Shown here: positions 1,084-43,530 of the stretch, in pieces
Layout: every line of letters starts with the position of its first letter
How positions within the stretch are numbered: position 1 is the first letter of the stretch
Translations under genes and position numbers: made by a program
DNA from: Asterias amurensis
Lineage: Eukaryota > Echinodermata > Asteroidea > Forcipulatida > Asteriidae
Reading direction: 5' to 3'
Assembly (NCBI RefSeq): GCF_032118995.1
Contig: NC_092666.1
Span: forward strand, 2,678,001-2,742,000
Length of the DNA stretch: 64,000 nucleotides
Notes under the pieces: generated by a model
The model's input: the letters and a program-made list of their open reading frames with translations, nothing else
Database searches by the model: none
Told to the model about the DNA's origin: nothing

Positions 1084-1376
1084 TATATACATGGACTCGT
1101 CCGTATGTATTTCACCTTGAAGCTTGACTGCTGTTATAACAAAAGAACGGCAAACTTGTTCCCAAAACACGGAAGTAACATCCCTTGCATGTATATTGGA
1201 CTATGGTATTGACTCAATAAAAAAAATGTATGCACATGCATGTGTTTTCAAATCGTCATAACCAGAAGAAAACAGTATTTGATTAGTTTGACATAAGGTT
1301 CACTAAGGTGACAATTGGGACCGCACTCGCCCTATAGTATGGTCTACACTATTGTCACAGTGTGGTTTTGTATCGC
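1084..1376 (+). promoter_or_regulatory. Conserved upstream block of cassette 1 (candidate promoter)
   Basis: This block shares ordered short motifs with the blocks before every other leader: a CTCGTCCGT...TTTCACCTTGA start, an ETS-like ACGGAAGT (1169-1176), and a final GGTTTTGTATCGCATG at the leader start. Conservation of non-coding sequence directly upstream of each leader suggests a private promoter. Confidence 0.55.
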
Positions 1377-1425
1377 ATGAACATGTCGGGACTATTACTG
1401 TTCACCGTTGGAATACTGTTAAAAT
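1377..1425 (+). CDS. Leader exon 1 (signal peptide)
   Basis: It encodes MNMSGLLLFTVGILLK plus one base, then a GTGAGT donor. The short hydrophobic peptide is typical of a signal sequence. Two in-frame ATGs (codons 1 and 3) are available. It has no acceptor, so it must be a first exon. Confidence 0.8.
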
Positions 1426-1875
1426 GTGAGTTATGTTATTTAAGCGGGTATTTGAAACGCAGTTTTATACATAATAAAGTGAACTCCTTCTTTGGGAATT
1501 ATTTTGTATTTCTTATAATAATCGTCGTTTTTCGATGGTTCATAATATCGTTAGTAAGGGTTATTGTTTATTGAGCATTATTATACAGTGCTAAAACGCC
1601 ATCCGAGTGGGTTCAACGCTCCTGACCCCCACCCCCCCCCCCCCCGCCACCCACCCCACCCCCACCCCCTCAGTGAGCGTTTTATTCGCATTTTTTTTTT
1701 TTTTTTTATCGATGTCCCAAAATCGGTTTCACGATTTTTTCGTGACCCTGGATGATCGATCTCCAACTTTTACAAGTTTGTAAGTTTTATGCCTATGGTG
1801 GATTACATATACACAGCCAGCGGCTGTTTTGTTAGCAACACAAATATTCTGTAATGTCCACATTTAATTCCACAG

Positions 1876-2247
1876 TGTCAAGTGGTCAAGTGATGATAAC
1901 AGTATCTCCAACTTTGAATGTAGACAGCGGAAACTCAGCCACACTTTACTGCAGTTACACCACAGACGCCAGCTATGGTTATCGATTGTTTTTCGTTTCT
2001 TGGTCAATGGGAGAAACACTTCGTCAAGCTTATAAAGTAGCTGAGTTCCGTGAAGAAGGTGATATTCCAACCTATTACAACAACTACAGCCCACTGGATT
2101 ACATAGCAGCAAGAGATGTAGCTAATGGGGTAACCACTTTAGTTATTGCATCTGTTGATTTCTACAACGACACGGGACTATTCTGGTGTCGCGTTATTCT
2201 GGCTGATGGCTATGACGATAGTGAATCAGTTGAAGTGAAGGTGATAG
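1876..2247 (+). CDS. V-set Ig exon V1
   Basis: The exon lies between a CACAG acceptor and a GTAAGA donor and is 372 nt, phase 1-1. It encodes a V-set Ig domain: first Cys in TLYCSYT, the core Trp in VSWSMG, and the second Cys in NDTGLFWCRV, with the usual Asp five residues before that Cys. It follows leader 1 and joins leader and C2 exons in frame. A copy lies at 61424-61795; differences concentrate between the first Cys and the C-prime region. If the donor is not used, translation runs into a hydrophobic stretch (see the feature at 2248-2372). The ligand is unknown; a recognition domain is inferred from the fold and the array context. Confidence 0.9.
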
Positions 2248-2372
2248 GTAAGAAACTTGTGATTTTAACCATTTTGTTCATAATTTTGTGTTTTTCTTCT
2301 TATATTATTCTCTCGCAACTTCGACGACCAATTGAGTCAAAATGTTCACAAGATGAGAAGACTGGTCTTTGA
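2248..2372 (+). other. Possible intron-retention tail of V1 (membrane helix)
   Basis: Reading through the V1 donor stays open for 41 codons. It encodes KKLVILTILFIILCFSSYII followed by basic residues and a stop at 2370-2372. The second half derives from the TTAAAGGCACTGGACAC repeat family (TCTCGCAACTTCGACGACCA). The same open read-through exists after the copy at 61795. It could yield a single-V membrane protein, but the strong GTAAGA donor argues for normal splicing. Confidence 0.25.
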
Positions 2373-2570
2373 CAATCCAAAGGTGTCCCGTCCCGTGCAG
2401 AAATAGGTTACGAGACCGCACTTCGTTTTAAAAATCATCTCTGCTCGTCCTCAGTTTGTAAAGTGAAAACAGCGAGTTTTGCAACATAAGTTTTGTGAAT
2501 GGCTCTTAACAGCTGACTGACCTTTGAACTATTTGATTGTGATCAACATAACACAACGCACCTTGCATGT

Positions 2571-2875
2571 GCATTGACTCGTCCGTCGGTAGTCAAACCT
2601 TGAAACTTGACTGACATTGTACCTTAAGTTCGGCAAAATATGTTACCAGATGCGGAAATAAACCTGCTCATTGTATGAAAATGCTGCGCTGCGAATTTTG
2701 AACAGATCCGAGTACAGTAGTTTCAACTCAAAGTATTATTCTAAGCAGGAAATGAACGTTCTATCGAGTAAGTTCTCGTGCTCCAGCAATTGACATGTTC
2801 AACAAAAAACAAGCTGACAATATTGGGACCCCACTCGTCACATGAGTCTATACATTCAATACGGTTTTGCAGTAC
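2571..2875 (+). promoter_or_regulatory. Conserved upstream block of cassette 2 (candidate promoter)
   Basis: It contains the shared modules CCTTGAAACTTGACTGAC, GTTACCAGATGCGGAAATAA, CTGCGCTGCGAATTT, CTAAGCAGGAAATGAACGTT and TACGGTTTTGCAG directly before leader 2. Confidence 0.55.
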
Positions 2876-2924
2876 ATGAAGATGTCAGGACTACTACTGT
2901 TCATCGTTGGAATACTGTTTAAAG
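2876..2924 (+). CDS. Leader exon 2 (signal peptide)
   Basis: It encodes MKMSGLLLFIVGILFK plus one base before a GTAATT donor. Length and phase are identical to the other leaders. Confidence 0.8.
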
Positions 2925-3179
2925 GTAATTTACTTTTAGTGATTATTTTAAATGCAGAAGAATTGGTATAACAAAAACGATCATTCCCTTTTCACGAGCA
3001 AAAGTAAATGTATCAGCTGTGTTTCGCACTACGTTTCTTTCAAATTGTAAAGAAAGTCATTTTCAAGTTGAACTTATCACTTTAGTTTGTAAGTTAATTG
3101 GAGATTCGTAAAATAATCAACACTTTCATCAATAAAGTGACGTCAAAGAAATAGTTTAAAGTCAGTGTCTAAACTCTAA

Positions 3180-3365
3180 AGTGCTGATTCGTTCCTACAA
3201 TGTACTCGCTTTCGGGTCGAACTTTCTATCCACGAATGTAGTATTTCTCGTATATTCTCTTTAACTTAACAGGAACCTCATCTAAAGTGTACATTCGCGG
3301 ATAGAAAGTACTGCGTTCGGCCCGTACATAATCCACGAATCTACACTTGTTCGTGTATAATTCTC
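3180..3365. repeat. Intronic foldback sequence
   Basis: The arms TTTCTATCCACGAATGTAG (3223-3241) and ACATTCGCGGATAGAAAG are imperfect reverse complements, and outer portions also pair. It is probably a MITE relic. It is conserved in the second copy near 62730-62900. Confidence 0.5.
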
Positions 3366-3408
3366 TATAACATTATACCTCAATGTATTTTCTTCTTCTG
3401 TTCTACAG

Positions 3409-3783
3409 AGTCATGTGGCCAAGGGACAGTGACAGTTTCTCCGGACGTGACCGCTGACAATGGCAGTCCAACAACACTTTCCTGCTCATACACCGTGGAC
3501 AATAATTACTTATTATATAACCTAGAATGGAGAAGAGGGGAAAGTGTGAGGGACAGTTTCAGAATTGCTGATTTTGTAAATGATGTCGATCAGCCAATCT
3601 ACTACGGTAACTTCAGTGCATCGGAATACACAGCCTCTAGAGATAAAATTAATCGAATAGCTTCATTGGCTATTGCTTCTGTAAGATTCCAGGATGACTC
3701 TGAACTCTTCTGGTGTAATATTCAAGTGTATACTTCAGGTTCAGTGACACAAATCAGTGATTCAATTGAAGTGATTGTGATAG
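3409..3783 (+). CDS. V-set Ig exon V2
   Basis: The 375-nt, phase 1-1 exon follows a TTCTACAG acceptor and ends at a GTATGT donor. The V-set marks are TTLSCSYT (first Cys), LEWRRG (core Trp) and DDSELFWC (second Cys). It belongs with V1 by its TVSPD start and SIEVIVIG end. Its copy at 62979-63353 differs by about ten residues, spread along the domain. It can join leader 2, V1 or the following C2 exon in frame. Confidence 0.9.
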
Positions 3784-4504
3784 GTATGTTTAGGTATTTG
3801 AGGGTCTTTTGAGTTTGGATGTGTTGGTTTTGTGAGTGTTGTAGAGTACTAGCATAATGCTGTCTTTAGTGAGATTGGGCGAGTAGGCCTAATAGGTAAT
3901 TTATAAGTTTTTTTTTATACAACATAATTACACATTCAAACCGGGAACCTAAAACAAGAGGACAATAGGGTCCACGTTTCGGGTAAGATCCACAGTGAGT
4001 ATAAACAAAACAAAACACGTTGTTCTGTACAGTGATGTTTGTTCTAAATTCTTTGAAAATTTACATTTGTGTATTTAACACGTTTAACATTAATTAACCA
4101 TTCCTCAAACGAAGAGTTGACCTAAGATTTAAACATCCCTTTTTGCTTGACTTTGCTGTTGTTTTGTCCGCATTCTCAGTTGTAAATAATATACTGATAA
4201 AATTCGAACGTAGAAAATGTAGAATAAAATGGAATCGTTTTTACCATTACATCAATAAAACAGAAAATCCCTTGGAATTGTTCCATTGTTCAAAATATTG
4301 TATGCTAACTTTAATTTTGAGTAATAACCAAACGTGTCCAGTGCATTTAATATATGTAGCGCCCTCTACCGGTGACTAATACTATGGTATTCAATCAAGA
4401 CTACGAGTAAGGATGATTAGCCTTCGAAATTATCACCATCAATAATAACGTTCATATCTTAGATGTTAATATTGCATCGGGATACAGATTATTAATTTTG
4501 GTTT

Positions 4505-4680
4505 TTACCAATATACACCGATATGTCTACTGTTAGCACCGTATAGGCCTACTCAGTACTTTCCCGAGTCATGTGAAAAAGGGGATATTACTCAGTGAGA
4601 GTCGAACCCACATCCCTTTCAGACAGTGTCTTACCAACTAGACCGCCGAGATTGCCCGGTAATAAGAGGCAGTTCGAATC
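4505..4680 (-). mobile_element. tRNA-like repeat (CACCGATGTGT / ACTCAGTACTTTCCCGAG family)
   Basis: On the minus strand it carries TAGTTGGTAAGAC and GGTTCGACTCTCA, which resemble Pol III box A and box B. It sits next to an ACTCAGTACTTTCCCGAGT module that recurs at 20.8, 23.8, 29.1 and 52.1 kb. It is a tRNA-derived repeat, not a functional tRNA gene. Confidence 0.5.
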
Positions 4681-4728
4681 CTATGAATGAAATGTTAACA
4701 ACAATAATAATTTTATTTTGTTCTGTAG

Positions 4729-5055
4729 TTCTCCCAAGGAGCATCACAATATCTGATGAGTCTGGACCCTATCCTGCTCGTGGCACATCATACCTTGTAG
4801 AAGGAGATGAACGTCAGTACGAATGTGTGGTACCAGACATTAATCCAGGAGCTACCTTTACTTGGACTGTTGGAGGTCGGAGTCTTACAGCAGACAGCAA
4901 CATTGACGTCATTGGTAGTAATGGGTTAACAACCAGCGCAAGTAACACCACACTAACAGCTGAAGCAAGACACGATGGAGAGATGTTACAATGCCAAGCA
5001 TCAAACAAGAATGGACATGATGGAGTTTCTACCACTGTATTGATTGATGTCAAAG
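4729..5055 (+). CDS. C2-like Ig exon (first pair, domain a)
   Basis: This 327-nt, phase 1-1 exon has a TTCTGTAG acceptor and a GTAATT donor. It encodes an Ig domain starting VLPRSITISDESG, with the first Cys in RQYECVVPD, the core Trp in FTWTVGG and the second Cys in EMLQCQASN. It is clearly paralogous to the exon at 28420-28746: both share TSYLVEGD, VVPDINPGA and VTIDVKG-like ends. It sits right after V2 and may supply constant Ig domains to V1 and V2 transcripts, or extend a longer Ig ladder. Confidence 0.88.
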
Positions 5056-5205
5056 GTAATTATTAATCATATAATAATAATACTTGGTTCTTACATAGCG
5101 CTTTGTATCACGACCCTAGGGGTGTTTCAAATTGCACAGTATTTTTTTCCTGCAAGGTATGTGGAGCTACAGTATGAGACTTGTTCATAATAAGCACCAC
5201 GTAAT

Positions 5206-5716
5206 GGACATCCAAAGACATCAAGAATTCAACCAAGCTAAATCTTTACAGAGTCTTGGTTCTACCAATAGCCACCTACAGCTCCGAAACATGGACACTA
5301 AAGAAAGCAGATGAGCAGAGATTAAGGGTTTTCGAGATGGCCTGCTTGAGGAAAATACTGGGGGTCACCAGAAGGGACAGACTTCGAAACACAAGAGTAC
5401 GTGAACTGCTTCACTACTATAAAGATCTTCCAACTTCAATTAGGAAAACTAAACTCAAGTATTTTGGGCATGTGAATAGAATGGGCAATGGCCGATACCC
5501 CCCAAATACTTCTAGAGGGCCACATTGCAGGAAACAGACCCAGAGGAAGACCAGGGAAACGATGGCTGGAAGATAACAAGCACTTCTGTGAAGAGGCTGA
5601 CATACCATCTGTGGCAGCAGCAGGACACCTAGCAAGGAACAGAGACCTATGGAGACTCTTAGTTGGGAAGCCATCTCCGGGATCTACCTCGGGAGGACGG
5701 CTATGATGATGATGAT
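5206..5716 (+). mobile_element. LINE 3' fragment (reverse-transcriptase ORF C-terminus)
   Basis: Two frames joined by a shift encode YSSETWTLKKADEQRLRVFE and then RPRGRPGKRWLED and LARNRDLWRLLVGKP. These motifs are typical of the C-terminal end of non-LTR retrotransposon ORF2 (the GRP-x-RW-x-D type). The fragment ends in a short TGA-type repeat (5702-5718), as many LINEs do. It is a 5'-truncated, frameshifted and dead copy. Confidence 0.75.
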
Positions 5717-5717
5717 A

Positions 5718-5975
5718 CAAGGTGCTGTAGCGCAGTATGCTGTCGATCAAACCAGGAAACTCCGGGGCTAACCCCTATACTCTTTCCAATAAGTGCACTG
5801 GGATCTTTTACGAGCGTTACACAGCCCATGGGACCAACGGCTTTACGTCCCATCCGAAGGACGAAGCAATGGCTATGTATGTTGTTCTAGGACACAAGTG
5901 TCGACTGGGACTCGAACCCACACTCTACTGATCAGAAACACCAGAGTTTGAATTCGGTGCTGTGTTATAGAGCCT
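5718..5975 (-). mobile_element. tRNA-derived SINE copy
   Basis: It is the reverse complement of the SINE best seen at 30008-30400. It shares the CATCCGAAGGACGAAGC and GGACTCGAACCCAC modules. The head is at the high-coordinate end. Confidence 0.6.
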
Positions 5976-6079
5976 TGTTCGTCACTGAGTGACGGTTGTG
6001 CGCATAAAAATAAGAAGCCACTATATTGTACTGTACAAACTGAATTCCAACCTTCTTTCCTTTATCTTTTTTTTTGTAG

Positions 6080-6406
6080 TGCCCCCGAAGGCTTCATCGA
6101 TGTCGCTTTTCGATTCCAGCGGACCTCTTGGAGATCAAGTAGACGTCATTGAACAAACTGCACACACTTTCACCTGCAGGGTTGATGGTACCAAACAAGC
6201 TGCAACCATCAAGTGGTATCTTGATGACGTAGAGCAAACACCCACCACAACAACCCCTGGAGTAGGCAATGGACTGGTGGACACAGAAAGTCACTGGACA
6301 TTCACTCCACAGAGGGTCAACCATAGAAACACCGTCAAATGTGAGGCAAACACTGTGGATTCAGTGGGTCAATTCCCTTCAATATCTACTACATTGATTG
6401 TTATTG
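6080..6406 (+). CDS. C2-like Ig exon (first pair, domain b)
   Basis: This 327-nt, phase 1-1 exon has a TTTTTGTAG acceptor and a GTGAGT donor. It encodes an Ig domain beginning VPPKASSMSL, with the first Cys in HTFTCRVDG, the core Trp in IKWYLDD and the second Cys in NTVKCEANT. It is paralogous to 29274-29603 (shared VPPK start, FTPQR, CEA). With 4729-5055 it forms a duplicated two-domain module. Past the donor the frame stays open to a stop at 6595-6597, and an AATAAA-like signal lies near 6658, so a short secreted form ending here is possible but unproven. Confidence 0.88.
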
Positions 6407-6734
6407 GTGAGTATAACTTAAACATTAATTTAAACCTTCGACCTTGCCTTACACCATGCTTACATGATCGACAAAAAATATGCGATTTGGTTTTAAGTAG
6501 TGTTTTAAAAGAGTCCAGTGAAGGAGCTTATTTAATGTGGGTTTATAGCTTGTTCCAAAGTGTTGGAGCTATGACGGAAAAAGCACGATCGCCATAGCGT
6601 ATCATGGTGCGGGGTCCCGGGGAAAGCTGGAAATAAGCGATGATCAAAAGGTCCAAAAATAAAAATTCATATAGGCCTAAATTGTGCATAAAAATCATTC
6701 AACAAAAATTAGAAAATACACGTCAAAGCAAGGC

Positions 6735-7035
6735 AGTTAACCATTGCTTCGTCCTCCGGATGGGGCGTTAAGCCATTGGTTCTGTGTGTTGTGTAACGCA
6801 CATAAAATAACCCAGTGCAGTTGTCGAAAAGAGAAGGGGTTCGCCCGGTTTCATGGTTGTAGCTGCTGAATGCGCCTTTAAATAAGCACCTTGTAAACCC
6901 AAAGGTGCTACAGATTGCATAACTTCAATAACCTATATTTCTGTAAAATGTATAGGCCTAAGCGCCTCGAGTACCTTGCTGGTAGATACGTGCGCTAAAT
7001 AAAACTTCGATATCGTTAATAATATTATAATGTAT
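6735..7035 (+). mobile_element. tRNA-derived SINE, 3' part
   Basis: It carries CGTCCTCCGGATGGGGCGTT, AGAAGGGGTTCGCCCGG and the tail GCGCCTCGAGTACCTTGCTG ahead of a short AT tail. These are the modules of the copies at 30008 and 41542. The tRNA-like head is missing. Confidence 0.6.
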
Positions 7036-7157
7036 AATAGTGGGGTGTTATAATGGTGTTTGTCGCGTTAAAACGCCGTATTATTATGGCTTGAAACGCC
7101 CGTCGTAGGCCCTACCGAAAAAAAAAGTGTGTTACTGCTGGCGGAAATTAGCAACCG

Positions 7158-7441
7158 GCGCACGTCCGTCTGTATTGCACCTTGAAACTTGACTGACTAT
7201 TGTACCAAAACAACAGTAAAATATGTTACCAGATGCGGAAATAACCTGCTCATTGTAGGTATACGACGCTGCGAATTTGAATATGGCTCTATTTTACTTT
7301 CAATTCGTCATTCTAAGCAGGATATGAACGTTATTTTAGGTGAATTCTCGTTTTCCAACAAAGTTGACATGTCCAACTAAGCTGACCAAAAAGGACAACA
7401 GTTGCCCAGTAGTATGTTCTACGTTCATTACGGTTCTTTGC
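7158..7441 (+). promoter_or_regulatory. Conserved upstream block of cassette 3 (candidate promoter)
   Basis: It has the ordered modules GTCCGTCTGTATT, CTTGAAACTTGACTGAC, TTACCAGATGCGGAAATAAC and CATTCTAAGCAGGA. It is preceded by an AACGCC-rich stretch (7060-7160) found only before V3, V4 and V7. Confidence 0.55.
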
Positions 7442-7490
7442 ATGAAAATGTCAGGACTATTACTGTTCATCGTTGGAATACTGATAAAAG
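7442..7490 (+). CDS. Leader exon 3 (signal peptide)
   Basis: It encodes MKMSGLLLFIVGILIK plus one base, followed by a strong GTAAGT donor. Confidence 0.8.
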
Positions 7491-7684
7491 GTAAGTTCGT
7501 GTGTGACTGTGAATAGTATTTTTAAAGTGCATAACTTTTTGTACACAAAAACAGTATTTCTTCTTTGGGTAGATTGTTGTATTTAGGAATTGTATTTCTT
7601 TCCCGAATCTTGAAAAGAAAGTTTAGGAGATTTTACCTTTTGTACTTTCCCATGAGTTATTCACATTTCAAAATAAAAAGCACT

Positions 7685-7895
7685 TAAGCCCCTTTCATAC
7701 TAGAGCAATTGGGCAAGGGTCCCTTTCTAAATTGCAGCATGGTTGTAAAAGTTAACACATTGTACATCGTGTGAAAGGACGACAACTTTTGTTATGCCCA
7801 AGGTTCATTGACCTTGTCAAATATTGATACATTTTACAACCACGATATTAAGCAATGGACCCCTGTTGATTTTGCTGTCGTGTGAATAGGGCTGA
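7685..7895. mobile_element. Short inverted-repeat element
   Basis: The ends AGCCCCTTTCATAC and GTGTGAATAGGGCT are imperfect inverted repeats in the V3 leader intron. It is likely a MITE, with no coding content. Confidence 0.4.
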
Positions 7896-8453
7896 AGTCT
7901 ACCAGTGGGAGCTTACCTCGCATGGTAATGTATCAAACAATGCTGTGGCTGGTATGACGGGATGTGCATGTTTGCTCAATAGGCCTATAGTGCTTGTCGG
8001 AAATAGGTTTCCCATTGAAGAACACCTTCAACACCTTCAAATAAGTTACTTTATTTCCATAATTTTCCGTGATTATCATGAGGCCTATATAAAATTATGT
8101 TATTTCGTCAATGATTTTATCAACAGTTACTTTAAGTGCTTCTAAACATATTCAGGAGATTATGTGTGTCGCCCCCCCCCACTCCCCCCCCCCCCCCCCA
8201 TATGGCGAACCATGTGAGAGAAAAAACTTCTGACAAAGCCCTCTTTCGAATCATCCTCCCCTTCACATGACTGTTATATCATATCAACTAGATCGTAACT
8301 AAATATGTTATTGAACACTGGGCCCCTAAGGATAAAAACAGGTTCTTGCTTTTCAAAACCAGTGAACTCATTGGATACAATAGTTATTTCATTGGATAAA
8401 CGAGCAGTGACATGACAATCCCATGTTAATTATGTGTACTTTGTTTTGTTCAG

Positions 8454-8846
8454 TTTGCAATGGTAGAAAACTCACAATGACTCTGGAGTCTGAAGCAAGT
8501 TATGAAGGAAATCCCACTACCCTGTCATGCTCCTACACTATTCTGGACAATACATACGGACTACACGATCTGGAATGGTTCAAAGGAGATAGTTTTACGG
8601 GCCCATCTACCCTCAAGATCGCTGATTTCTATCGAGCAGCAGCGTCTCCTTCTTATTACAATGTTTATGATGATCCAACAAAATACCTGGTATCCAGAGA
8701 CAATGATAATTCCATCAGTACTTTTGACATTTTTAATGTGGATTTTAGCAACGATAGAGGGCGGTATTGGTGCAGAGTAACAGTGAGACCAATAGGAGGA
8801 GGGGCAACTGTGAATGAAATTGCTTCGACTGACTTGATTGTCTATA
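8454..8846 (+). CDS. V-set Ig exon V3
   Basis: This 393-nt, phase 1-1 exon has a TTGTTCAG acceptor and an A|GTAAGT donor. It encodes a V-set domain beginning CNGRKLTMTLESEAS, with the first Cys in TTLSCSYT, the core Trp in LEWFKGD and the second Cys in NDRGRYWCRV. It groups with V4 and V7 by the TM-LESE start, STFDIFNV and TDLIVYS end. It is slightly longer than the other groups, with the extra length after the second Cys, where a CDR3-like loop would lie. Confidence 0.9.
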
Positions 8847-8984
8847 GTAAGTACACACTAGACTGCCCCCTGTCTTTATCCGCAAGGATAAAGACATGTA
8901 CTTGCTTTTCAGAACCAGTGATTTGATTTGATTGAATGCAATGATGTCCTGGATAAACGTGCAGTGACGTTCTTTTACATATCT

Positions 8985-9053
8985 GTATTTTGATTGGTCT
9001 GGGGTGATGTCAGTGCAGCTGACAAAAATCACCTCGGACCAATCAAAACACAG
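8985..9053. repeat. Intronic hairpin
   Basis: TTTTGATTGGTC and GACCAATCAAAA flank a TGATGTCAG...CTGACAAAAATCA core. It can form a strong hairpin. Confidence 0.5.
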
Positions 9054-9547
9054 CTTAATTTCGGTCGTCAGCATGGATGCAGTGTCAATATGCTGTATTA
9101 TGTACATAACAGTACATGTACTTGCATGTAATGTTGCTTTGAAGGATTCGACTGTGTGTGAAATGATTGTAGGTGAAAGGTGAAGATGGACGGTATAGCA
9201 TAAACAATGATTGTGCACGATGTTGACTCCCAACAAAAGGGGCGGACATAGGCGCGTGTGAGTGTGCTGCGCGTTGTGCAGCGTTCACACACATAGGTCA
9301 TATTGGCAGATCAAGAAATTAAAACATTCAGAGGTAGGGTCATAAACCTATCCGCAAACACATTGCGCAAGCGCTAACTGTTGAATGAGGTGCATGATGG
9401 TCTAGCTAGGGATCAGATTGCTCACTAGGTAGACCAGCATGCACCGTGGCTCTACTGGAAACGCCTACATACCGTGTAATTGTGAAAAGGTCCGTATGTA
9501 CTGTGGTATGCGCCCAAACATCAACTGTGTATTAGTCTTTTCATGAA

Positions 9548-9826
9548 AACTAACGTGGGACTTTTCGAACGCTAGGTGGCAGCAGACTTACCAGGTTAAT
9601 CCATTTATCTCGTTAATAAGCGCAAACACCCATTGCGCAAAGCGCTTTCTGTTGAACGGGGTACATGCTGGTCTATAGCCAGTCTAGCTAGGAATCAAAC
9701 TTGAGTGCTAGCTAGACCAGCATGCACCTCATTCAATGCATACGGCGCGCGTACCGGGTATTAATTGCGTACCTGGTATATCTGCTGCCACCTAGCGTTG
9801 AAAAGTTTCTCATTGCACGTTTGTTC
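9548..9826. mobile_element. MITE-like element with long imperfect inverted ends
   Basis: ACTTTTCGAACGCTAGGTGG (9558-9577) and CCACCTAGCGTTGAAAAGT near 9790 are inverted. The interior has paired GACCAGCATGCACC arms. No coding sequence is seen. Confidence 0.5.
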
Positions 9827-10177
9827 TTGCAAGATTTAGAAGAGATAGGTTACGAGCCGACCAGATGATAAAATCGTTGGCAAAATAATCTTTGTTTGGA
9901 CCCAGTTTATAAAAACGGCAAAGGTGGGTGAAACATAAACTTGTGAGTTGGAACAAACGACAGATCTGTGAACTTTTAATTGATTATGATCAAACAAGAT
10001 ATAAAAAATACACCTGTACATAAATTTTAATGGGGAACAAAGCTGTAAATTAGAGTGTTGTATAACGCCGTTAATTTACAGCGTTATAACGTAAGGCGTT
10101 AAGGGTGTAATTGATGCAATAAAACGCCGAGTAGGGCCTACCGAAAAATATGTTTTGCTGTTGGCGGAAACCAGACC

Positions 10178-10469
10178 CAGGCGTACGTCCGTCTGTATCA
10201 CCTTGAAACTTGACTGACTTTTGTACCAAAAGTTCAGCAAAACATGTTACCAGATGCGGAAATAACCTGTTCATTGTATGTGGACTGTACTGCGCTGGTT
10301 TGAATAAACTCATTCAAAGTAGTTTCAATTTATTGTAGTCATTCTAAGCAGGAAATGAGAGTTATATTGAGTAAAATCTCGTGCAACTAATTTGACATGT
10401 TCAACTAAGTTTACAATTGGGCCCCTCTTGCCCAGTGTGGTCTTTATAAATATTGTGGTTTTGCAGCGC
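10178..10469 (+). promoter_or_regulatory. Conserved upstream block of cassette 4 (candidate promoter)
   Basis: It contains GTCCGTCTGTATCACC, CTTGAAACTTGACTGAC, TTACCAGATGCGGAAATAAC, CATTCTAAGCAGGAAATGA and GGTTTTGCAGCGC. It is preceded by the same AACGCC-rich stretch as the V3 and V7 blocks. Confidence 0.55.
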
Positions 10470-10518
10470 ATGAAGATGTCAGGACTAATTCTGGTCATCG
10501 CTGGAATACTGCTAAGAC
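10470..10518 (+). CDS. Leader exon 4 (signal peptide)
   Basis: It encodes MKMSGLILVIAGILLR plus one base. The donor is GTAGGT, weaker than in the other leaders. Confidence 0.75.
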
Positions 10519-10765
10519 GTAGGTATTATTTATGAGCGAATAATACGAATTTTCCTGGTTGTTTGAAACTACTCAAAAAGAGATAAAAAATTAACTTTGT
10601 GTTCCCACAAACCTCACTTTATATAGTTGGTATAGTTTGAGTCACAATATCTAAGGCACCTTTTTAATCATCTTTGTAGGGCTTTGTTGCACTGAAAAGG
10701 CCGGTAAATTAATAATTTTGTTTGGTGCATTTCTCGGTTATGAGGAGGGCTATAATAATACTTTT

Positions 10766-11145
10766 AAAGGCACTGGACACTATTGGTGATACTCAAAATA
10801 ATTGTTAGCATAAAACCTTTTTCTTGGTAACAAGCATTGGAGAGTTGTTGGTAGTATAAAACATTGTGAGAAACGGCTCACTCTGAAGGAATGATAGTTT
10901 TTGAGAAAAAGGGCCTTTCTCACTCAAATAATAAAATACTTCAGCTGAAGCCTTTACTATGCGTCTGAAAGCACACAAAGTAATGCACCAATGGTGTTTT
11001 CTCTTTCATTATTCTCTTTCAAATTCGATGACAAATGTTGAGCCCAAATTTTCACTGGGTTTGTTATTTTATGCATATGTATATGTTGGGATACAACAAG
11101 TGAGAATACTGGTCTTTGACTATTGACAATTACCAAAGGTGTTAG
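10766..11145. mobile_element. Foldback MITE, family A (TTAAAGGCACTGGACAC ends)
   Basis: It starts AAAGGCACTGGACACTATTG. The interior carries the family modules (AAACATTGTGAGAAACGGCT, AGCCCAAATTTTCAC) and the far end has CTTTGACTATTGACAATTACC. No protein is encoded. Confidence 0.65.
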
Positions 11146-11309
11146 TTACCAAACAATCAAAGTCACTTTATAATGATGGTAATTGCCCTGGCTGTTTATG
11201 TATGCACTATAATGCATATGATTAATTGAGTGTATACCTTTTGATAGCTGTGTAGGCCTACATGCATTTTATAAAAATAAGTGATTTTTTTTCTTTCTTT
11301 TTTCTTTAG

Positions 11310-11708
11310 TTACTAATGGTCAAGTAGTCACAATGAGTCTTGAATCTGAAACGAGTTATGTTGGCGACCACACTGCCATCTCTTGTTCGTATGCGATTTC
11401 GGACAGTTCTTATTTGGTTTACACTCTGAGTTGGTTTAAGGGAGACAGTCCTTTAGACCCATCAACCAAAAAGATTGCTGACTTCATTAGAGAAGAAACA
11501 TCTCCTTATTATGCAAATGGTTATGATGACCAGTCACGATACAATGTATCCAGATCTGGAAACAGTGGTAGCTTCGTCAGTACTTTTGACATTTTTAATG
11601 TGGAATTTAGCAGAGATAGAGGGCGGTATTTGTGCAGAGTAACAGTGATACGATTGGATGGAACAAACCCTTTTGATACAGCGGATTCGACTGACTTGAT
11701 TGTATACA
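11310..11708 (+). CDS. V-set Ig exon V4
   Basis: This 399-nt, phase 1-1 exon has a TTTCTTTAG acceptor and an A|GTAAGT donor, and is the longest V exon. It encodes TNGQVVTMSLESE at the start, the first Cys in TAISCSYA, the core Trp in LSWFKGD and the second Cys in RDRGRYLCRV, with Leu where V3 has Trp before Cys. It is the closest relative of V7. A serine- and glycine-rich loop precedes STFDIFNV. Confidence 0.9.
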
Positions 11709-12169
11709 GTAAGTACACGACCATCATCAAAATAAACTTTAAACAATTCAGTTTTTCCAACATTATAAACACATGGCGTTGTTATGTTTAATCTACGTTT
11801 GGTGGGTTTGAAACTTTGCATGTAATGTTCTAATTATTGCAAAATCAAAGGTGACATTTGGGTGCTAAATTCGTTGTCAAAACCATTCTTACTTTTAAAT
11901 TGAAAAATAAAACAAATATAATACCAAACCATTCGACACGCTTTTCAATTATTTAAAAGAAACTTAAAAATCAAGTCGAACGTTTTCAAGCGGAACACGT
12001 GGCCAATCATTGAACTGTTGTTTGATTATTTGATGTAAATAATACTAATAATAACAACGAAGTCGTATTGCGCACGTATCTACCAACAAACTACTCAATA
12101 CACTTAGTATATACATGTTTACAGAAAGATAGGTGAATAAAAAATGATGACTTTCTGAGACCGTATTAT

Positions 12170-12425
12170 GTAGCACCTTACAAGGGTTAACAAGGTGTTA
12201 CGGCAATTTTAGCAGCCACTACCAGAAACACCGGGCGAACGCCCCTCTCTTAGCGATAAGTATAACTGTGATCTTGTACGTGCATAAACAACGCACGGGA
12301 CCAACAGCTTAACGTCCCAACCGAAGGTAAGGGACACAGGTGTCACGACTCTCGAATTCGCACTCTGCTGAAACACCAGATTTTGAATCCGGTGCTCCAA
12401 AAACCGCTCGGCCATGACGAACACA
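12170..12425 (-). mobile_element. tRNA-derived SINE copy
   Basis: The reverse complement contains the head near 12420 (CCATGACGAACAC side), CAGAGTGCGAATTCGAGAGT and AAGAGAGGGGCGTTCGCCCG. These match the family at 30008-30400. Confidence 0.6.
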
Positions 12426-12464
12426 CAAAACGGATTACTTTTCCTATAGACCAACTTTTCCTAT

Positions 12465-12747
12465 AGACTTGTTCGTGTGTATTTAACCCTGAAACTTGAC
12501 TAGCTATATTGTACCAAGTGTAAACTTTGTCCCCAAACACGGAAGTAACCCACATTGTATGTAGCGCTGCGAGTTTAAAATAAATGGGTATAATGTGTTT
12601 CAATTTCTAGTCATTTCTAAGCAGGAAATTAATGTTATCGCGAGTAAAAACTAAAGTTCCAATTAATAATGTATCAACCAATAAGCTGACAGTTGCGACC
12701 TCACTCGCACGTAGTATTCGTCTACATTCAGTACGGTTTTGCAGCGC
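12465..12747 (+). promoter_or_regulatory. Conserved upstream block of cassette 5 (candidate promoter)
   Basis: It contains CTGAAACTTGACTAGC, CCCCAAACACGGAAGTAACC (ETS-like core at 12539-12546), GTAGCGCTGCGAGTTT and ACATTCAGTACGGTTTTGC just before the leader. Confidence 0.55.
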
Positions 12748-12796
12748 ATGAATATGTCAGGACTACCGCTGTTCATCGTTGGAATACTGTTAACAG
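12748..12796 (+). CDS. Leader exon 5 (signal peptide)
   Basis: It encodes MNMSGLPLFIVGILLT plus one base, with a GTACGT donor. A Pro replaces the Leu at position 7, as in leader 6. Confidence 0.78.
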
Positions 12797-13364
12797 GTAC
12801 GTTTTGTGACATTTGAATCGTAGAAGATTTGTACACACGGACCATTTTTTTTTTTTTTTTTTTTTTTACTTTGTTTGTAATGAGGTCTTGTTTTTCTTCA
12901 ACGAATTCTAAACCGAAAAGTTCAGGAAAATGTACTTTTCTAATAGTTGTACATTACCACGTAAACTTAGAGCAGGGCTAATTTGTGTCGTACTGCCTTC
13001 GAATCATGGTGGTTATTATGACGTGTGTATTCTTAATATAGGACTATCAAAATAATTCAATTTATATGAGGCCTATGTTATTTTGTAAACAAAGTTGTCA
13101 TTATTTTTGCCAACCATTGTGTTTCGGAATTTCTTTTGTAGTAGAATGTTGTTTGGGTTTTCTAAAAGTAGTTCAAATACTTGTCAAATTAGGATCTTAA
13201 CTCCATTTTGTTTGATTAACATCACGTCGTGACCCGCAGACCAAATTGGATGTGCTTTCAATCAGTTAGCAATAAAGAGTAAAAACATTTCATCTTCATA
13301 ATAGATGTATACTGCAAGTTATTTTATTCGGTTTTCGTTTTGGTTTCTTTTTGTTTTAATCAAG

Positions 13365-13718
13365 GTGTGGGTATTTCTGCCGAGCTGGATGTTGTTATCA
13401 GTAGTGGTCCATCGGTGGACAGTGGTACAGATACAACATTGACTTGCACATCAACTGAATCTGGTTCACCCAGAGAAGTTAGATGGAGTAAGGGTCCCAT
13501 CAATGGGACCCTTAATGATGCTGATACCATCGTTTTATACGTCATGGGTAGCCCTATCCAATGGGGTTCAGTAGATCAAAGCCATTATGAGTTTGATCTA
13601 ACTGCTAGTGGTGTTCCTCTCACCATTAAATCAGTTTCTCGGGCCGATGAAGCTCAATACTGGTGTACTTTGAAATTTGGAGCAAGGGAGTTCGGGTCAG
13701 CTGCAATGAGAGTAAGAG
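13365..13718 (+). CDS. V-set Ig exon V5
   Basis: This 354-nt, phase 1-1 exon has a TTTTAATCAAG acceptor and a GTGAGA donor. The domain begins VGISAELDVVISSGP, with the first Cys in TTLTCTST, the core Trp in VRWSKG, the second Cys in ADEAQYWCTL and the end AMRVRG. It founds the ELDVVIS group (V5, V6, V8, V9). The group is shorter than the other V exons and carries the D-E/D-A-x-Y-W-C signature close to classical V domains. It has two possible N-glycosylation sequons. Confidence 0.9.
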
Positions 13719-13734
13719 GTGAGATTCGGCGCAG

Positions 13735-13892
13735 GGCCCAATTTCACGGCTCTGCTTACCGCCGAATCTGCGCTTACGATCACGATTCCTCGTTTACGTG
13801 CAAGCGCCGGATTTCTGCGCAAGCCTTGTAAGTTTAGAATGCCTAGTAACATGCCTAGTTTACGGTAAGCAGAGCCATGAAATTGGGCCCAG
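13735..13892. mobile_element. Short foldback element ending GGGCCCAATTTCA
   Basis: GGGCCCAATTTCACGGCTCT and AGAGCCATGAAATTGGGCCC are inverted ends 16 nt past the V5 donor. Reading through V5 runs into it, which explains the extra open sequence there. Confidence 0.7.
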
Positions 13893-14191
13893 GTAAAACC
13901 AGACCACTGAGTTCACACTGGATGAAACAATAATGCGCAAAACTCTTACGCAGCAACAGCGGTTGTCTTATGTACTTGTTGTACCACAAAACACAATGTC
14001 CACGGATTTACATTAAACTTACAAAGTTTGGTGATGATGGTAATGGCAATGTCACGAATACGTTTTACATGCTTTTAAGCAAACATAGTTGTAGTGTTTT
14101 ACTCAAATCTAAAAAAAAAAAACTCAGAAAGTTATTATTAACTGCTAGGCCATGATACACTTAATACACAATGCAGCCTTTACAAACATAG

Positions 14192-14454
14192 AAATGTTTG
14201 TGTGTATTTCACCTTGACACTTGCCTGGCTATATACAACGTGTAAAGTTTGTCCCCAAACACGGAAGTAGCCCTGCGAACCTAAATAAAAGAATTTGGTG
14301 TGGTTTCAATTTCTAGTCACTCTATGCAGGAAATTAACGTTATAGCGAGCAAAAACTAAAGTTCAAAATAATAATAATTTATCGACTAAGCTGACAGTTG
14401 GGACCTCACTCACCCACAGTAGTATCGTCTACATTCAGTATGGTTTTGCAGCGC
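14192..14454 (+). promoter_or_regulatory. Conserved upstream block of cassette 6 (candidate promoter)
   Basis: It contains TGTATTTCACCTTGACACTT, CCCCAAACACGGAAGTAG, AGTCACTCTATGCAGGAAAT and ACATTCAGTATGGTTTTGCA. Confidence 0.55.
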
Positions 14455-14503
14455 ATGAAAATGTCAGGACTACCACTGTTCATCATTGGAATACTGTTAA
14501 CAA
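14455..14503 (+). CDS. Leader exon 6 (signal peptide)
   Basis: It encodes MKMSGLPLFIIGILLT plus one base, with a strong GTAAGT donor. Confidence 0.78.
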
Positions 14504-15112
14504 GTAAGTTTTGTGATTATTTGAGTCGTTGGAACACAAACACAGTTTATTCTTGGATAACATAAATACAACTGTTTGTAGCGCTTTATACATAGTGTTT
14601 CTAAGCACTTTACAAAAAAAGTAATAGGTAGTAGTATTATTTAAAATAAAAGAAAAAAAAAGGAGCAATCACGGGTAGGTATTCAATTTAGTTTTTAACG
14701 TGTTCACATTCGGGGAATTGCGTGTGATGAATGGGAGATTGTTCCAAAGTTTGGGGGCACACACGGGAGAAGGCTCGTTCACCGTAGCGAGTAATAAAGA
14801 TACGTGGACCGGGGGTCGAGTTCACAAAGAGTTGAAATTGATGTTATGTTTAGTCCAAATCAATCTGTAGTTGCTAGGCATTGTGTGATGTCAAAATACA
14901 AATCATGGTTATGATCACGGCAAACTCATCGACCCGAGGAGCTAGTTGAGGTGTGCTGTGTGATAAGAGGAGATATATTCACTTTTGTATTTAGCTCTTG
15001 GTTTTTCTAAATGTTCAGGAAATTGTTGTACCTTCCCGATAGTTTTTTTTTTTTTTTTTTTTGCATTAATATCTAACTCACCATAGTCTACCAACTTATC
15101 TTAATACGGGTT

Positions 15113-15221
15113 GTGGGGCCGATTTCACAAAGATTGAAAATTGATCATAACTGCAAACCAATCGTAGTTGCTTAGTAAAGTGTGATGTGACAATACAAAT
15201 GCTTTGTGAAATCGGCCCCTG
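15113..15221. mobile_element. Foldback element with GGGGCCGATTTCACAAAG ends
   Basis: GGGGCCGATTTCACAAAG and CTTTGTGAAATCGGCCCC are perfect inverted ends about 109 bp apart. A degraded relative lies at about 14815-14900. Confidence 0.75.
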
Positions 15222-15533
15222 GTTAGGTTGGTTATTTATGTATAAATTGTGTGTTCTTTTAGGTTTGCGGTAACAAGTGATTATTTAGGAATGTGCATCT
15301 ATAAGGCCTATTATTATTATTTTGTAAAACCAAGTTGCCATTGTATTGCCAACCATTGTGTTTTGTTATTTATTTTATAGAATGTTGTTTAAGTTGGGTT
15401 TCCTAAACTTTATTATAATAATTATAATATTGTGCAATTCGGATCATAGCTGACTCCTTGTATTTGATAATACACCTACTGTACATAACTTTTATTTGGT
15501 TTTCTTTGTGTTTTTGTTTTTGTTTTAATCAAG

Positions 15534-15890
15534 GTGTGGGTATTTCTGCACAGCTGGATGTAGTCATCAGTAGTGGTCCATTAGTGGACAGTGGTACAGA
15601 TACAACATTGACATGCACATCAACTGAATCTGGTTCACCCAGAGAAGTCAGTTGGAAAAAGGGTCCATTCGATGGGACTTATAATAATGCTGCACCGATC
15701 GTTTATTACCTCCAAGGTGACCCCGTCTTATGGGGTAACTCAGTGGATCCAAACCACTATGAGTTTGATCAAACTATAAGTGGTGTTCCTCTCACCATTA
15801 AATCAGTGACATTAGATGATGAAGCTAAGTACTGGTGTACCTTGAATATTGTGGGAGAGGAGAAAGGGTCAGCTGTTATGAGAGTAAGAG
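15534..15890 (+). CDS. V-set Ig exon V6
   Basis: This 357-nt, phase 1-1 exon has the same TTTTAATCAAG acceptor as V5 and a GTGAGT donor. It begins VGISAQLDVVISSGP, with the first Cys in TTLTCTST, the core Trp in VSWKKG, the second Cys in DDEAKYWCTL and the end AVMRVRG. It is very close to V5, with most change in the C-prime to D region (INGTLNDAD against DGTYNNAA) and after the second Cys. The pair suggests a local duplication of the cassette. Confidence 0.9.
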
Positions 15891-15944
15891 GTGAGTGTTC
15901 AGTGCGGGGATAAACCACTAAAGTCTAGGGTGGATCTCACAAAG

Positions 15945-16330
15945 AGTTAACGACATTGGACACTATTCGTAATTGTCAAAGACCAGTCTTCTCACTTGGT
16001 GTATCTCAGCATATGCATAAAATAACAAACCTGTGAAAATTTGAGCTCGATTGGTCGTCGGAGTTGCGAAATAACTATATGAAAGAAAAAACACCCTTGT
16101 CACACGAAGTTGTGTGCTTTCAGATGCTTGATTTCGAGACCTCAAATTCTAAATCTGTCCTAGAAATCAAATTCGTGGAAAACTACTTCTTCCTCAAAAA
16201 CGTCACTTCAGAGAGAGCCGTTTCTCACAATGTTGTATACTATCAACCTCTCACCATTACTCGTCACCAAGTGAGGTTTTATGCTGATAATTATTTTGAG
16301 TATTTACCAATAGTCTCCAATGCCTTTAAG
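15945..16330. mobile_element. Foldback MITE, family A
   Basis: It starts at ACATTGGACACTATTCGTAA, carries AATTTGAGCTCGATTGGTCG and AGAGAGCCGTTTCTCAC, and ends near ACCAATAGTCTCCAATGCCT. It is a nearly full-length copy. Confidence 0.65.
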
Positions 16331-16334
16331 ACTA

Positions 16335-16436
16335 GTCTTATCTTGAGTTAAGACGGGTTACTTGTCCTAACGCAGGACTAGCCATACGTTTTGTACGTCT
16401 CCTAGGACTAAAGTCTAAGTTGTGAAATCGACCCTG
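16335..16436. mobile_element. Partial GGACTAGTCCTAA foldback element
   Basis: It carries the CTAGTCTTATCTTGAGTTA and CTCCTAGGACTAAAGTC modules also seen at 288-436 and 40283-40466. Confidence 0.5.
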
Positions 16437-16895
16437 TTCATTTGTGTAACTTCTCAATGTTTTATCAAACTTGTAGGACATATTCCTTTTTTGTTGTCAT
16501 ATTTTTAAAAAACAAATTTGGGGGGCTGTTCAGTTTCTAATTGCAAGGGAACCCTGTTCTTAAGTGGTTTCTTTCATAGTGTGGTTTCAATGTGTAAGAG
16601 GGTTCCCACAACACCCTGTGCATTTTTATAATGCCTTTCAGTGGTTCATCAAATTTATATTTATAATTATTTATTGGCATCTTTGTTTTTATGCATTTGT
16701 GTACCCCCGTACTGCAGCGGTACACTTTTATGTATTTTATCTATGTAATTTTTAACAATATTTTCGTGTGCTGATCTCACTCAGTATTGGTACATTTATT
16801 TCAATGCTGTCATACAAAACAATACTACAATAATTCAGCTTAGTGTTACCGTTTTTGTTTTTGTTTTTTTTTAATGTTTTTTTTTTTTTTATAGA

Positions 16896-16921
16896 AATGA
16901 ATGAATGAATGAATGAATGAA
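16896..16921. repeat. (GAAT)n microsatellite
   Basis: Six consecutive AATG units follow two T-rich runs. Confidence 0.85.
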
Positions 16922-17513
16922 AGTTCCCTTCGGATAGAACAATAATGCGCAAAATACTCTTACGCAGCACCCAACGGTGGTCTTAAACTGGCATTATTTG
17001 GCAATTACTATTGTGCCCTGTATGGTGCTCTGTGGCAGCTTGCCCAGACATAGTCAACTTGTCCACAGAACTCGACAAAGTACTTAGTGTAACGTAGTTA
17101 ATACTAAGGTTACAGTTCAGTACTTTGGGGGGTTCATGTATTAATAAACTGCCGTGTCCTTTATGATGTTATTGAAAAAGTTCAATACATCTCTCCTGAC
17201 CCTGTCCAATGGGGCATTATGGTAAATCCATAACTCATTACGCCATTAAAGGGATATGTTGCCTTGAATCGGGCGGGTTGGTCTTTGAAAAGCGCTGGAA
17301 ACCGTTAGTTATAAAATGCGTATGGATAAATAGATGTTTTAAAAGTAGAATATAATGGTACACACACACATGCCTCGAAATTGCACGGTTTTCCTTTTAC
17401 GTCGGCCATTTTGTGGAGTAAAAATCGGCGTTGTGGTGCGTTCAAACGCCGCGATGGGGCTTTGAAACGCCGCATCTGAAAAAGTGTTTTGCTGTTGGCG
17501 GAAATCAGCCCCC

Positions 17514-17752: not shown

Positions 17753-18148
17753 TTACTAATGGTCAAGTAGTCACAGTGAGTCTTGAATCTGAAACCAGTT
17801 ATGTTGGCGACCACACTGTCCTCTCTTGTTCCTATGCGATTCTGGACAGTTCTTATGTAGTTTACACTCTGGATTGGTTCAAGGGAAATAGTCCTTCAGG
17901 CCCATCTACCCTCAGGATTGCTGAATTCTATCTAGATGCAACATCTCCTACATATGGCAGTGCTTACGATGACCAATCACAATACAATGTATCCAGATCT
18001 GGAAACATGAATAACTTCATCAGTACTTTTGACATTTTTAACGTGGAGTTTAGCAGAGATAGAGGGCGGTATTTGTGCAGAGTACTAGTGGTACGACCTG
18101 ACGGAACGAACTCTAATGCAATTGCCACAACTGACTTGATTGTGTACA
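17753..18148 (+). CDS. V-set Ig exon V7 (no leader of its own)
   Basis: This 396-nt, phase 1-1 exon has a TTCTTTTTTTAG acceptor and an A|GTAAGT donor. It encodes TNGQVVTVSLESE, with the first Cys in TVLSCSYA, the core Trp in LDWFKGN and the second Cys in RDRGRYLCRV. It is the closest relative of V4. No leader exon exists between V6 and V7, and the upstream block runs straight into the acceptor region, so a deletion removed the leader. The reading frame and splice sites are intact; it could still be used by splicing from an upstream leader, for example leader 6 with V6 skipped, or in multi-V proteins. Confidence 0.88.
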
Positions 18149-19890: not shown

Positions 19891-19939
19891 ATGAAAATGT
19901 CAGGACTAATCATGTTCATCGTTGGAATACTGTTAAAAG
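19891..19939 (+). CDS. Leader exon 8 (signal peptide)
   Basis: It encodes MKMSGLIMFIVGILLK plus one base, with a GTAATA donor. Confidence 0.78.
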
Positions 19940-21082: not shown

Positions 21083-21442
21083 GTGTACCTGCAGAGCTGG
21101 AAATAGTTATCAGCAGTGGTCCATTGGTTGACAGTGGTACAGATACAACATTGACTTGCACATCAACTTCATCCGGTACAATTAGAGAAGTCAGTTGGAA
21201 AAAGGGCCCCTTCAATGTGACCTTTAATGATGCTGATACCATAGTTTTCTATAACATTAAACAAGGTGTCTTATGGGGTCCTTCAGTGGATCAAAACCAT
21301 TATGAGTTTGATCATACTCTAAGTGGAGTTCCTCTCACCATTAAATCAGTTACTTTGCATGATGAGGCTCAGTACTGGTGTTATTTGAATATCGGCTCTG
21401 GAATCGGAAACCAGTTTGGTACTGCTGTTATGAGAGTTAGAG
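21083..21442 (+). CDS. V-set Ig exon V8
   Basis: This 360-nt, phase 1-1 exon has a TTTAATAAAG acceptor and a GTGAGT donor. The domain starts VPAELEIVISSGPLVDSG, with the first Cys in TTLTCTST, the core Trp in VSWKKG, the second Cys in HDEAQYWCYL and the end AVMRVRG. It is nearly the same as V9, its partner in the 3-kb duplication. A Gly-rich loop after the second Cys (NIGSGIGNQFGT) is shared by the two and absent from V5 and V6. Confidence 0.9.
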
Positions 21443-22917: not shown

Positions 22918-22960
22918 ATGTCAGGACTAATACTGTTCATCATTGGAATACTGTTAAAAG
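22918..22960 (+). CDS. Leader exon 9 (first ATG lost)
   Basis: The usual first ATG is GTG here (22912-22914). The second in-frame ATG, at 22918, is kept and gives MSGLILFIIGILLK plus one base with a GTAAAT donor. Start use at the second ATG would still yield a signal peptide. The same second ATG is present in every leader and may be the true start generally. Confidence 0.7.
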
Positions 22961-24087: not shown

Positions 24088-24450
24088 GTGTATCTGCAGA
24101 GCTGGATGTTGTCATCAGCGGTGGTCCATTGGTGGACAGTGGTACAGATACAACATTGACTTGCACAACAACTTCATCCGGTACAATAAGAGAAGTCACT
24201 TGGAGGAAGGGCCCCTTCAATGTGACCTATAATGATGCTGATGCCATACTTCTCTATAACACTATAATACAGGGTGTCATATGGGATCCTTCAGTGGATC
24301 GAAATCATTACGAGTTTGATCATACTCTAAGTGGTGTTCCTCTCACCATTAAATCGGTTACATTAGATGATGATGCTCAGTACTGGTGCCGTTTGAATAT
24401 CGGCTCTGGAATCGGAAACCAGTTTGGTACTGCTGTTATGAGAGTTAGAG
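24088..24450 (+). CDS. V-set Ig exon V9
   Basis: This 363-nt, phase 1-1 exon has a TTAAATAAAG acceptor and a GTGAGT donor. It starts VSAELDVVISGGPLVDSG, with the first Cys in TTLTCTTT, the core Trp in VTWRKG, the second Cys in DDDAQYWCRL and the end AVMRVRG. Compared with V8, changes lie mostly around the C-prime strand (DTIVFYNIKQGV against DAILLYNTIIQGV), while framework stretches such as YEFDHTLSGVPLTIKSVT are identical. Confidence 0.9.

Positions 24451-25362: not shown

Positions 25363-43530
<18,168 letters not shown>

Follow-up and report, generated by a model that had tools for sequence, protein, structure and literature searches.

Interchangeable V-type immunoglobulin cassettes upstream of a receptor tyrosine kinase: a probable gene layout in the sea star Asterias amurensis

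Can one receptor tyrosine kinase take its extracellular head from any of several V-type immunoglobulin (Ig) exons, each with a start of its own? The question is raised by a window of 64,000 nucleotides of the sea star Asterias amurensis (C19:2678001-2742000, on a contig, C19, of 15,767,093 bases), which was analysed together with its genome, searched over 491.5 Mb in 23 contigs. The original prediction held that ten V-type cassettes, nine of them with their own leader, feed a single set of Ig, FN3, transmembrane (TM) and kinase exons. The reading favoured here, and considered highly probable, sees a single receptor tyrosine kinase gene whose 5' cassettes are tandem and interchangeable, each with its own start region and leader (Table 1).

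Table 1. Features of the locus, in window numbering
Feature	Position	Strand	Evidence
Conserved block ahead of leader 1, putative promoter	1060-1382	+	Nine-region alignment; homologous blocks at all nine leaders
L1 leader exon, ATG to donor, MSGLLLFTVGILLK	1383-1425	+	In isoform model P0003
V1, V-set, phase 1-1	1876-2247	+	Exact match in P0003
L2 leader exon; further in-frame ATG at 2876	2882-2924	+	Same leader peptide in cluster-B P0004
V2, V-set, phase 1-1	3409-3783	+	Cluster-B twin in P0004
C1' Ig, C1 homologue; spliced after V1 (A model) or V2 (B model)	4729-5055	+	Exact in P0003
C2' Ig, C2 homologue; spliced to C3	6080-6406	+	Exact in P0003
L3 leader exon	7448-7490	+	In P0005
V3	8454-8846	+	In P0005
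L4 leader exon	10476-10518	+	Absent from isoform representatives
V4, modelled second V after V3	11310-11708	+	P0005
L5 leader exon	12754-12796	+	In P0008
V5	13365-13718	+	In P0008
L6 leader exon	14461-14503	+	In P0007
V6	15534-15890	+	P0007
V7, without leader, modelled second V after V6	17753-18148	+	P0007
L7 leader exon	19897-19939	+	Absent from isoform representatives
V8	21083-21442	+	Related cluster-B copy V8c in P0001/P0002
L8 leader exon	22918-22960	+	Same leader peptide in cluster-B P0001/P0002
V9	24088-24450	+	Absent from isoform representatives
L9 leader exon	25369-25411	+	In-frame exon reading
V10	26216-26590	+	Cluster-B twin V10b in P0001/P0002
C1 Ig, cassette part; after V10 in cluster-B models, skipped by four cluster-A models	28420-28746	+	
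C2 Ig, cassette part, donor GTTTGT	29274-29603	+	
C3 Ig, receiving splice site; where all eight isoform models converge	31880-32197	+	
C4 Ig (I-set)	32785-33120	+	
FN3 exon	33643-33930	+	PF00041, E 8.8e-14
Linker exon, 24 nt	34420-34443	+	
X exon, membrane-proximal beta-rich domain, RKRR furin-like site	35588-35872	+	
Transmembrane exon, GC-AG donor	36706-36831	+	Confirmed by P0003 tail
Juxtamembrane exons	36938-36971, 37249-37319	+	
Kinase K1-K4	38030-38215, 39334-39444, 40524-40711, 40801-40923	+	
Kinase K5-K8, to stop	41330-41441, 42281-42377, 42902-43001, 43453-43530	+	
Cluster B start: leader 1b (60945), V1b, leader 2b (62426), V2b	60945-63353	+	

All ten V exons, which lie between 1876 and 26590, are open, are bordered by an AG acceptor and a GT donor and have phase 1-1, and nine leader exons with a near-constant peptide and a phase 1 donor are spaced 1.5-5.4 kb apart, each ahead of its own V, which bears out the predicted ten V-type exons and nine leaders. 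Ten open reading frames of the window were run against Pfam, five of them V exons (V4 and V6-V9 were outside the submission); V1, V2, V5 and V10 score above the V-set cut-off, V3 below it (23.2 vs 26 bits). Both cysteines and the core tryptophan are common to all ten V domains in their alignment. A structure model of V1 (pLDDT 89.5) predicts a V-set fold with nine strands, whose order may be read as A-A'-B-C-C'-D-E-F-G, and antibody V domains form the majority among its 50 best listed neighbours of solved structure. The leader exon would supply half of a signal peptide, completed by the first residues of the V exon. Within the window a 30-base leader pattern matches ten times, at eight of the nine leaders and twice in a second cluster (B) that follows the present one (A); in 100 shuffles it matches nowhere. 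Across the whole genome a 66-base leader query recovers at least 20 copies, nine of cluster A and 11 of cluster B, and none outside the two clusters with 20 of 20 candidates scored, the counts being lower bounds. The interval between V6 and V7 was searched and holds nothing leader-like, and two Ig exons homologous to C1 and C2, named C1' and C2', are located between V2 and leader 3. In the intron that separates C1' from C2' there is a fragment of an open reading frame (5205-5576) that by eye resembles reverse transcriptase. A TM-like stretch that would be reached by reading through the donor of V1 was put down to a repeat, D19, that is present elsewhere in the window.

The sequence ahead of the leaders was compared as 300-bp blocks, each with its end 30 bp short of the ATG, a pair passing when its score was more than 1.5-fold the highest reached in 20 shuffles. 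All 36 leader pairs can be aligned over this block, and control stretches pass in 5 of 36 (start of the leader-V intron), 3 of 36 (end of that intron) and 2 of 36 pairs (-1000 to -700). That old cassettes conserve the upstream block while their introns have drifted is what a private start region for each cassette would lead one to expect, and the block is a candidate private promoter. The promoter-leader-V units of the original prediction therefore gain a conserved block upstream of each leader, and the promoter in them stays putative.

On the 3' side, L9 to K8 can be read as 20 exons in a single frame, encoding 1183 amino acids and a stop, in the order L9-V10-C1-C2-C3-C4-FN3-linker-X-TM-juxtamembrane-K1..K8. 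The intron after the TM exon (36832-36937) is of the GC-AG type, with which the deposited protein agrees. The tyrosine kinase domain is recognised with high significance (PF07714, E 1.8e-94), and its translation contains the VAIK lysine, HRD and DFG, the motifs of an active tyrosine kinase. Compared with PDB sequences, FGFR1-3 make up 59 of the 60 best of 2563 matched entries (best FGFR E 9.9e-89), and the top-ranked match is an entry named EGFR (E 1.5e-94). The comparison of kinase folds is also led by FGFR structures; it is based on the full-length model of P0008, whose overall confidence is low (mean pLDDT 63.8) and which was used only for the kin of the kinase and for the X domain. Among the 11 Pfam families detected there are only Ig-type, fn3 and kinase families and one sub-threshold phosphatase match. 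The membrane-proximal FN3 of the insulin receptor is cleaved, and the furin-like site in the X domain recalls it; the motif R-x-K/R-R occurs in 23 of the 38 related proteins scanned (P0001-P0037 and P0052), with its placement within X confirmed by eye in only a part of them; P0018, P0021 and P0028 of this set lack it. A run of TTAGGG telomere-type repeats is also found in the intron between K5 and K6, at about 41501-41539.

Whether the heads are joined to this body can be read from NCBI gene models, the product of a pipeline in which alternative isoforms as a rule have transcript support. Among the best 120 of 2239 matches of a protein search, eight A. amurensis sequence groups derive from the gene pair (27 members), and their representatives, P0001-P0008, are the isoform evidence. 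Exact exon matching assigns four of them to cluster A, namely P0003 (L1-V1-C1'-C2'-C3...), P0005 (L3-V3-V4-C3...), P0007 (L6-V6-V7-C3...) and P0008 (L5-V5-C3...), and in all four the sequence from C3 to the stop is identical to the independent exon reading of the window. The cluster-B models are P0004 (L2-V2-C1'-C2'-C3...), P0006 (V3-V4-C3..., beginning within V3), P0001, which runs from V8c through the V10a leader exon, here internal and coding, to V10b-C1-C2-C3..., and P0002, which has the arrangement of P0001 without C2. Six of the ten V exons are thereby covered in cluster A (V1 and V3-V7), whose representatives lack V2, V8, V9 and V10 as well as L2, L4, L7, L8 and L9, and cluster B adds counterparts of V2 and V10 plus V8c, which is of V8/V9 type. 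The predicted junction of different private leaders and V exons to one kinase is therefore found in the models. All eight enter the body at C3, so the constant part begins there, and not at 28420 as had been proposed; C1 and C2 go with V10, and C1' and C2' with V1 or V2, as parts of cassettes. The picture of ten cassettes stands as a layout and has to be amended in its units, since C1' and C2' had been overlooked, V7 follows V6 without a leader, and V3-V4 and V6-V7 are two-V units. Each of the eight models carries one or two V domains, on which ground one giant protein with all of them was rejected.

Two other ways of reading the 5' half are weighed against these models. In the first, V1-V9 would be short genes of their own or the decayed remains of tandem duplication, and leader 9 with V10 would be the sole cassette to feed the kinase. 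The spacing of the leaders, each before its own V, and the look of C1' and C2' as a duplicated V-C1-C2 unit severed from the kinase would fit it, but the V exons end in donors, the L1, L3, L5 and L6 cassettes are joined to C3 in the four cluster-A models, and both clusters retain open frames and good splice sites, which makes this reading extremely unlikely. In the second, transcription would start at one upstream promoter in the manner of Dscam1, with the V exons as internal, mutually exclusive exons and the leaders as relics. This is very unlikely, as the models open with different leader peptides and each leader retains its upstream block when the introns are mostly not conserved, even though the V exons do have acceptors and a leader exon is internal in two cluster-B models. 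The element TTTTGCAG before the leader ATG was considered as an acceptor for a shared 5' exon and is not favoured: L1 and L3 have lost TTTTGCAG, and in P0007 it is part of the coding frame, yet a leader exon is internal in P0001 and P0002. The arrangement with interchangeable cassettes is compatible with the reading frame throughout, because V exons have phase 1-1, leaders end in phase 1 and C3 begins in phase 1, so that every cassette fits C3. Since the V exons have acceptors of their own, their skipping must be regulated and is not automatic, and the combination of V8c and V10b with an internal leader exon in P0001 and P0002 speaks against a strict rule of one cassette per protein.

The prediction overlooked cluster B, which begins inside the window, lies directly downstream of cluster A and extends from 60945 to about 110856 in window numbering. 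It comprises 12 V exons, all without stops and with AG/GT borders kept, 11 leaders, C1'/C2', two C1-C2 pairs, C3, C4, FN3 and a kinase body. Between the two clusters, at about 50953-58261, two open reading frames are repeated three times with a spacing of 2816 bases. The 3' halves (29221-44001 in A) differ by 166 mismatches in 14,900 columns, about 99% identity outside gaps, and this kinase half diverges less between A and B than most of the V half, which suggests recent homogenisation, or recombination, of the kinase part; gene conversion is a possible route. Cluster B could also be the second haplotype of A, placed in tandem by misassembly, a reading that would agree with its position directly downstream and with the small number of 3' mismatches. 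It is quite unlikely, given that the V exons diverge more (dS up to 0.16 among V1-V7), that B has 12 V exons and an extra V10-C1-C2 unit, and that the models of A. rubens, judged by eye, likewise resemble two genes.

Comparison of the clusters also bears on whether the heads are in use. Over V1-V7 there are 44.0 synonymous changes in 597 sites and 73.0 non-synonymous changes in 2028 sites, a rate ratio of 0.49; V8-V10, which have several partners in B, were kept out of this pool. Single exons give 0.93 (V1), 1.24 (V5), 0.83 (C1') and 0.94 (C2', with four changes), and C2 against one of the B copies gives 1.44, so that several exon ratios near or above 1 indicate loose constraint. The array might be real and most cassettes rarely used, the isoforms being noise or automated stitching and only one or two heads doing the work. 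The evidence does consist of gene models, the combined P0001 is odd, and 3' halves that are about 99% identical can mislead short-read junction calls; on the other side stand the pooled ratio over V1-V7, the stop-free V exons of both clusters and the modelling of A. rubens with the same architecture, and this reading is judged unlikely. Among close copies, amino-acid differences are modestly enriched in loops (54/426 vs 86/1058 elsewhere, odds 1.64, p 0.008, from 12 pairs that are partly non-independent), the most so in the C'-D (CDR2-like) stretch (30/193); the CDR3-like loop shows no enrichment (6/71).

Related V exons are also present at other loci. A genome query with V4 (19 candidates scored) returned 14 matches, of which A and B account for 13, and one with V9 (27 candidates scored) returned 24, of which nine are in A and B, seven at C19:13.005-13.021 Mb, five at C4:23.266-23.283 Mb and three at C19:2.37-2.45 Mb. 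Two further V arrays are thereby outlined (C19:13005224-13021211 and C4:23265761-23283131), and downstream of both there are kinase exons on the same strand (C19:13,035,443 and C4:23,301,796-23,303,807), with which, we infer, each array forms one gene. In the parts of these arrays that were examined, short leader-like matches precede three of five V exons on C4 and two of four complete V exons at C19:13.01 Mb. In the congener A. rubens, the V of P0023, which represents 19 members, resembles the array at C19:13 Mb, and P0009 and P0010, two genes by eye, combine a leader and a V3-like head with C3 and a kinase. A protein search with the V5 head returned four proteins, all of them cluster A or B models, and none from outside A. 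amurensis passed. The search with V1-C1'-C2' found five proteins, the cluster A and B models plus P0020, a protein of 1048 amino acids with the order V2-C1'-C2'-C3-C4-FN3-X-TM, in which by eye a tyrosine-rich tail replaces the kinase; it is 61% identical to P0003 over V-C1'-C2', and its record of 5,524 bases is too short for introns and thus probably a cDNA. P0032 of A. amurensis (22 member sequences) belongs to the same ectodomain family, both tails being tyrosine-rich and ITIM-like by eye, and the kinase forms and P0020/P0032 may be likened to an inhibitory/activating pair. P0034, from Patiria, stops ahead of the membrane.

Several known systems share parts of this layout. UGT1 has alternative first exons with their own promoters, spliced onto common exons, and the variable part of protocadherins and of UGT1 is one large exon without an acceptor, and neither system is known to include an Ig domain or a kinase. 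The sea-star gene resembles both in splicing alternative first exons to common exons, but differs from clustered protocadherins in that there is no cadherin match in Pfam and that leader and V are on separate exons. In vertebrate V genes the leader is split off by a phase-1 intron, and the same split and the V-set fold are seen here as in antibody and T-cell receptor genes, from which the present V exons are set apart by encoding strand G and ending in a GT donor, with no J segment, the models joining V to Ig. The FGFR ectodomain consists of Ig domains and is not known to include FN3; the kinase domain is FGFR-like, whereas the ectodomain includes an FN3 exon. The asteroid kinases P0011, P0013 and P0015 have, by eye, a homologous C1-C2-C3-C4-FN3-X-TM-kinase body, and in their models a single V head is accompanied by two extra Ig domains, both of which are missing from the gene of the window, the one that has the V array.

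The original prediction compared the locus with arthropod Dscam, in which internal exons vary behind a single promoter, and omitted the closest precedent, the chelicerate sDscam genes. As described in the covered part of the source, these consist of tandem 5' cassettes, each with a start, one or two Ig domains and its own promoter, ahead of a constant 3' part; the constant exon can be joined both to cap-proximal and to downstream cassettes, and the genes are tandemly duplicated (PMC4835542). The same text describes promoter choice in protocadherins and mutually exclusive splicing of internal exons in insect Dscam1 (PMC4835542). The gene models of the sea star follow sDscam in anatomy, with tandem 5' cassettes of leader and Ig spliced to a constant part; as far as that account goes, sDscam uses Dscam Ig7/8 cassettes without a kinase, whereas the sea-star gene has V-type heads, optional Ig exons, FN3 and a tyrosine kinase. 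This kind of layout is thus already known from sDscam, and what is new, and sets the gene apart from that family, is a constant part that is a receptor tyrosine kinase (PF07714). Dscam1 likewise derives Ig variation from one locus, but the present models start at private leaders (L1, L3, L5 and L6). VCBPs combine two V domains with a chitin-binding domain, according to the part of the source covered (PMC2632668), and no such domain is among the 11 Pfam families found here. A literature search limited to titles and abstract openings, and mostly to papers outside subscription, found no such array on a kinase among the matches listed. A review of invertebrate Ig proteins treats Ig-domain kinases and, in the text covered, describes no such array (PMC11999971), and a coelomocyte proteome reports a Tie-2-like kinase in coelomocytes that, in the text covered, is not tied to the gene of the window (PMC13409769).

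In the proposed mechanism, a cassette would consist of a start region and a leader followed by one V, by two V (V3-V4 or V6-V7) or by a V and two Ig exons (V1 or V2 with C1'-C2', V10 with C1-C2). Transcription would begin at one leader, the last exon of the cassette would be spliced to the C3 acceptor with the intervening exons skipped, and the mRNA would encode one ectodomain head on the constant Ig-Ig-FN3-X-TM-kinase body. The cassette may be chosen per cell or per tissue, different heads may bind different ligands, and binding would activate the kinase, possibly in immune or self-recognition cells. The same gene logic could serve other ends, either the homophilic identity of cells or neurites or signalling in development, in the style of protocadherins and sDscam. 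Both of these have been linked to synaptic specificity and neuronal self-recognition in the part of the source covered (PMC10154414), but a catalytic kinase tail is unlike either of them, and this non-immune role is a possibility of real weight, if short of an even one. More tentative, and on the doubtful side, is a multi-locus Asterias repertoire made up of A, B and the sister arrays, in which each cell would pick one V cassette promoter, put one V head on a kinase and so contribute to the recognition of pathogens, or of self and non-self, by coelomocytes.

If the models are right, a V-domain receptor would be diversified by promoter choice and coupled directly to a tyrosine kinase, in a deuterostome from which rearranging antigen receptors are not known, and neither the kinase output nor the V-type heads nor the deuterostome host was to be expected. 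One receptor could then recognise many different targets, and the near-identical kinase half would make the locus a clean system of many heads and one signal. Two questions would become testable: whether echinoderms have a somatically selected repertoire of V-type recognition, and whether the layout of protocadherins and sDscam has arisen again independently, with an enzymatic tail.
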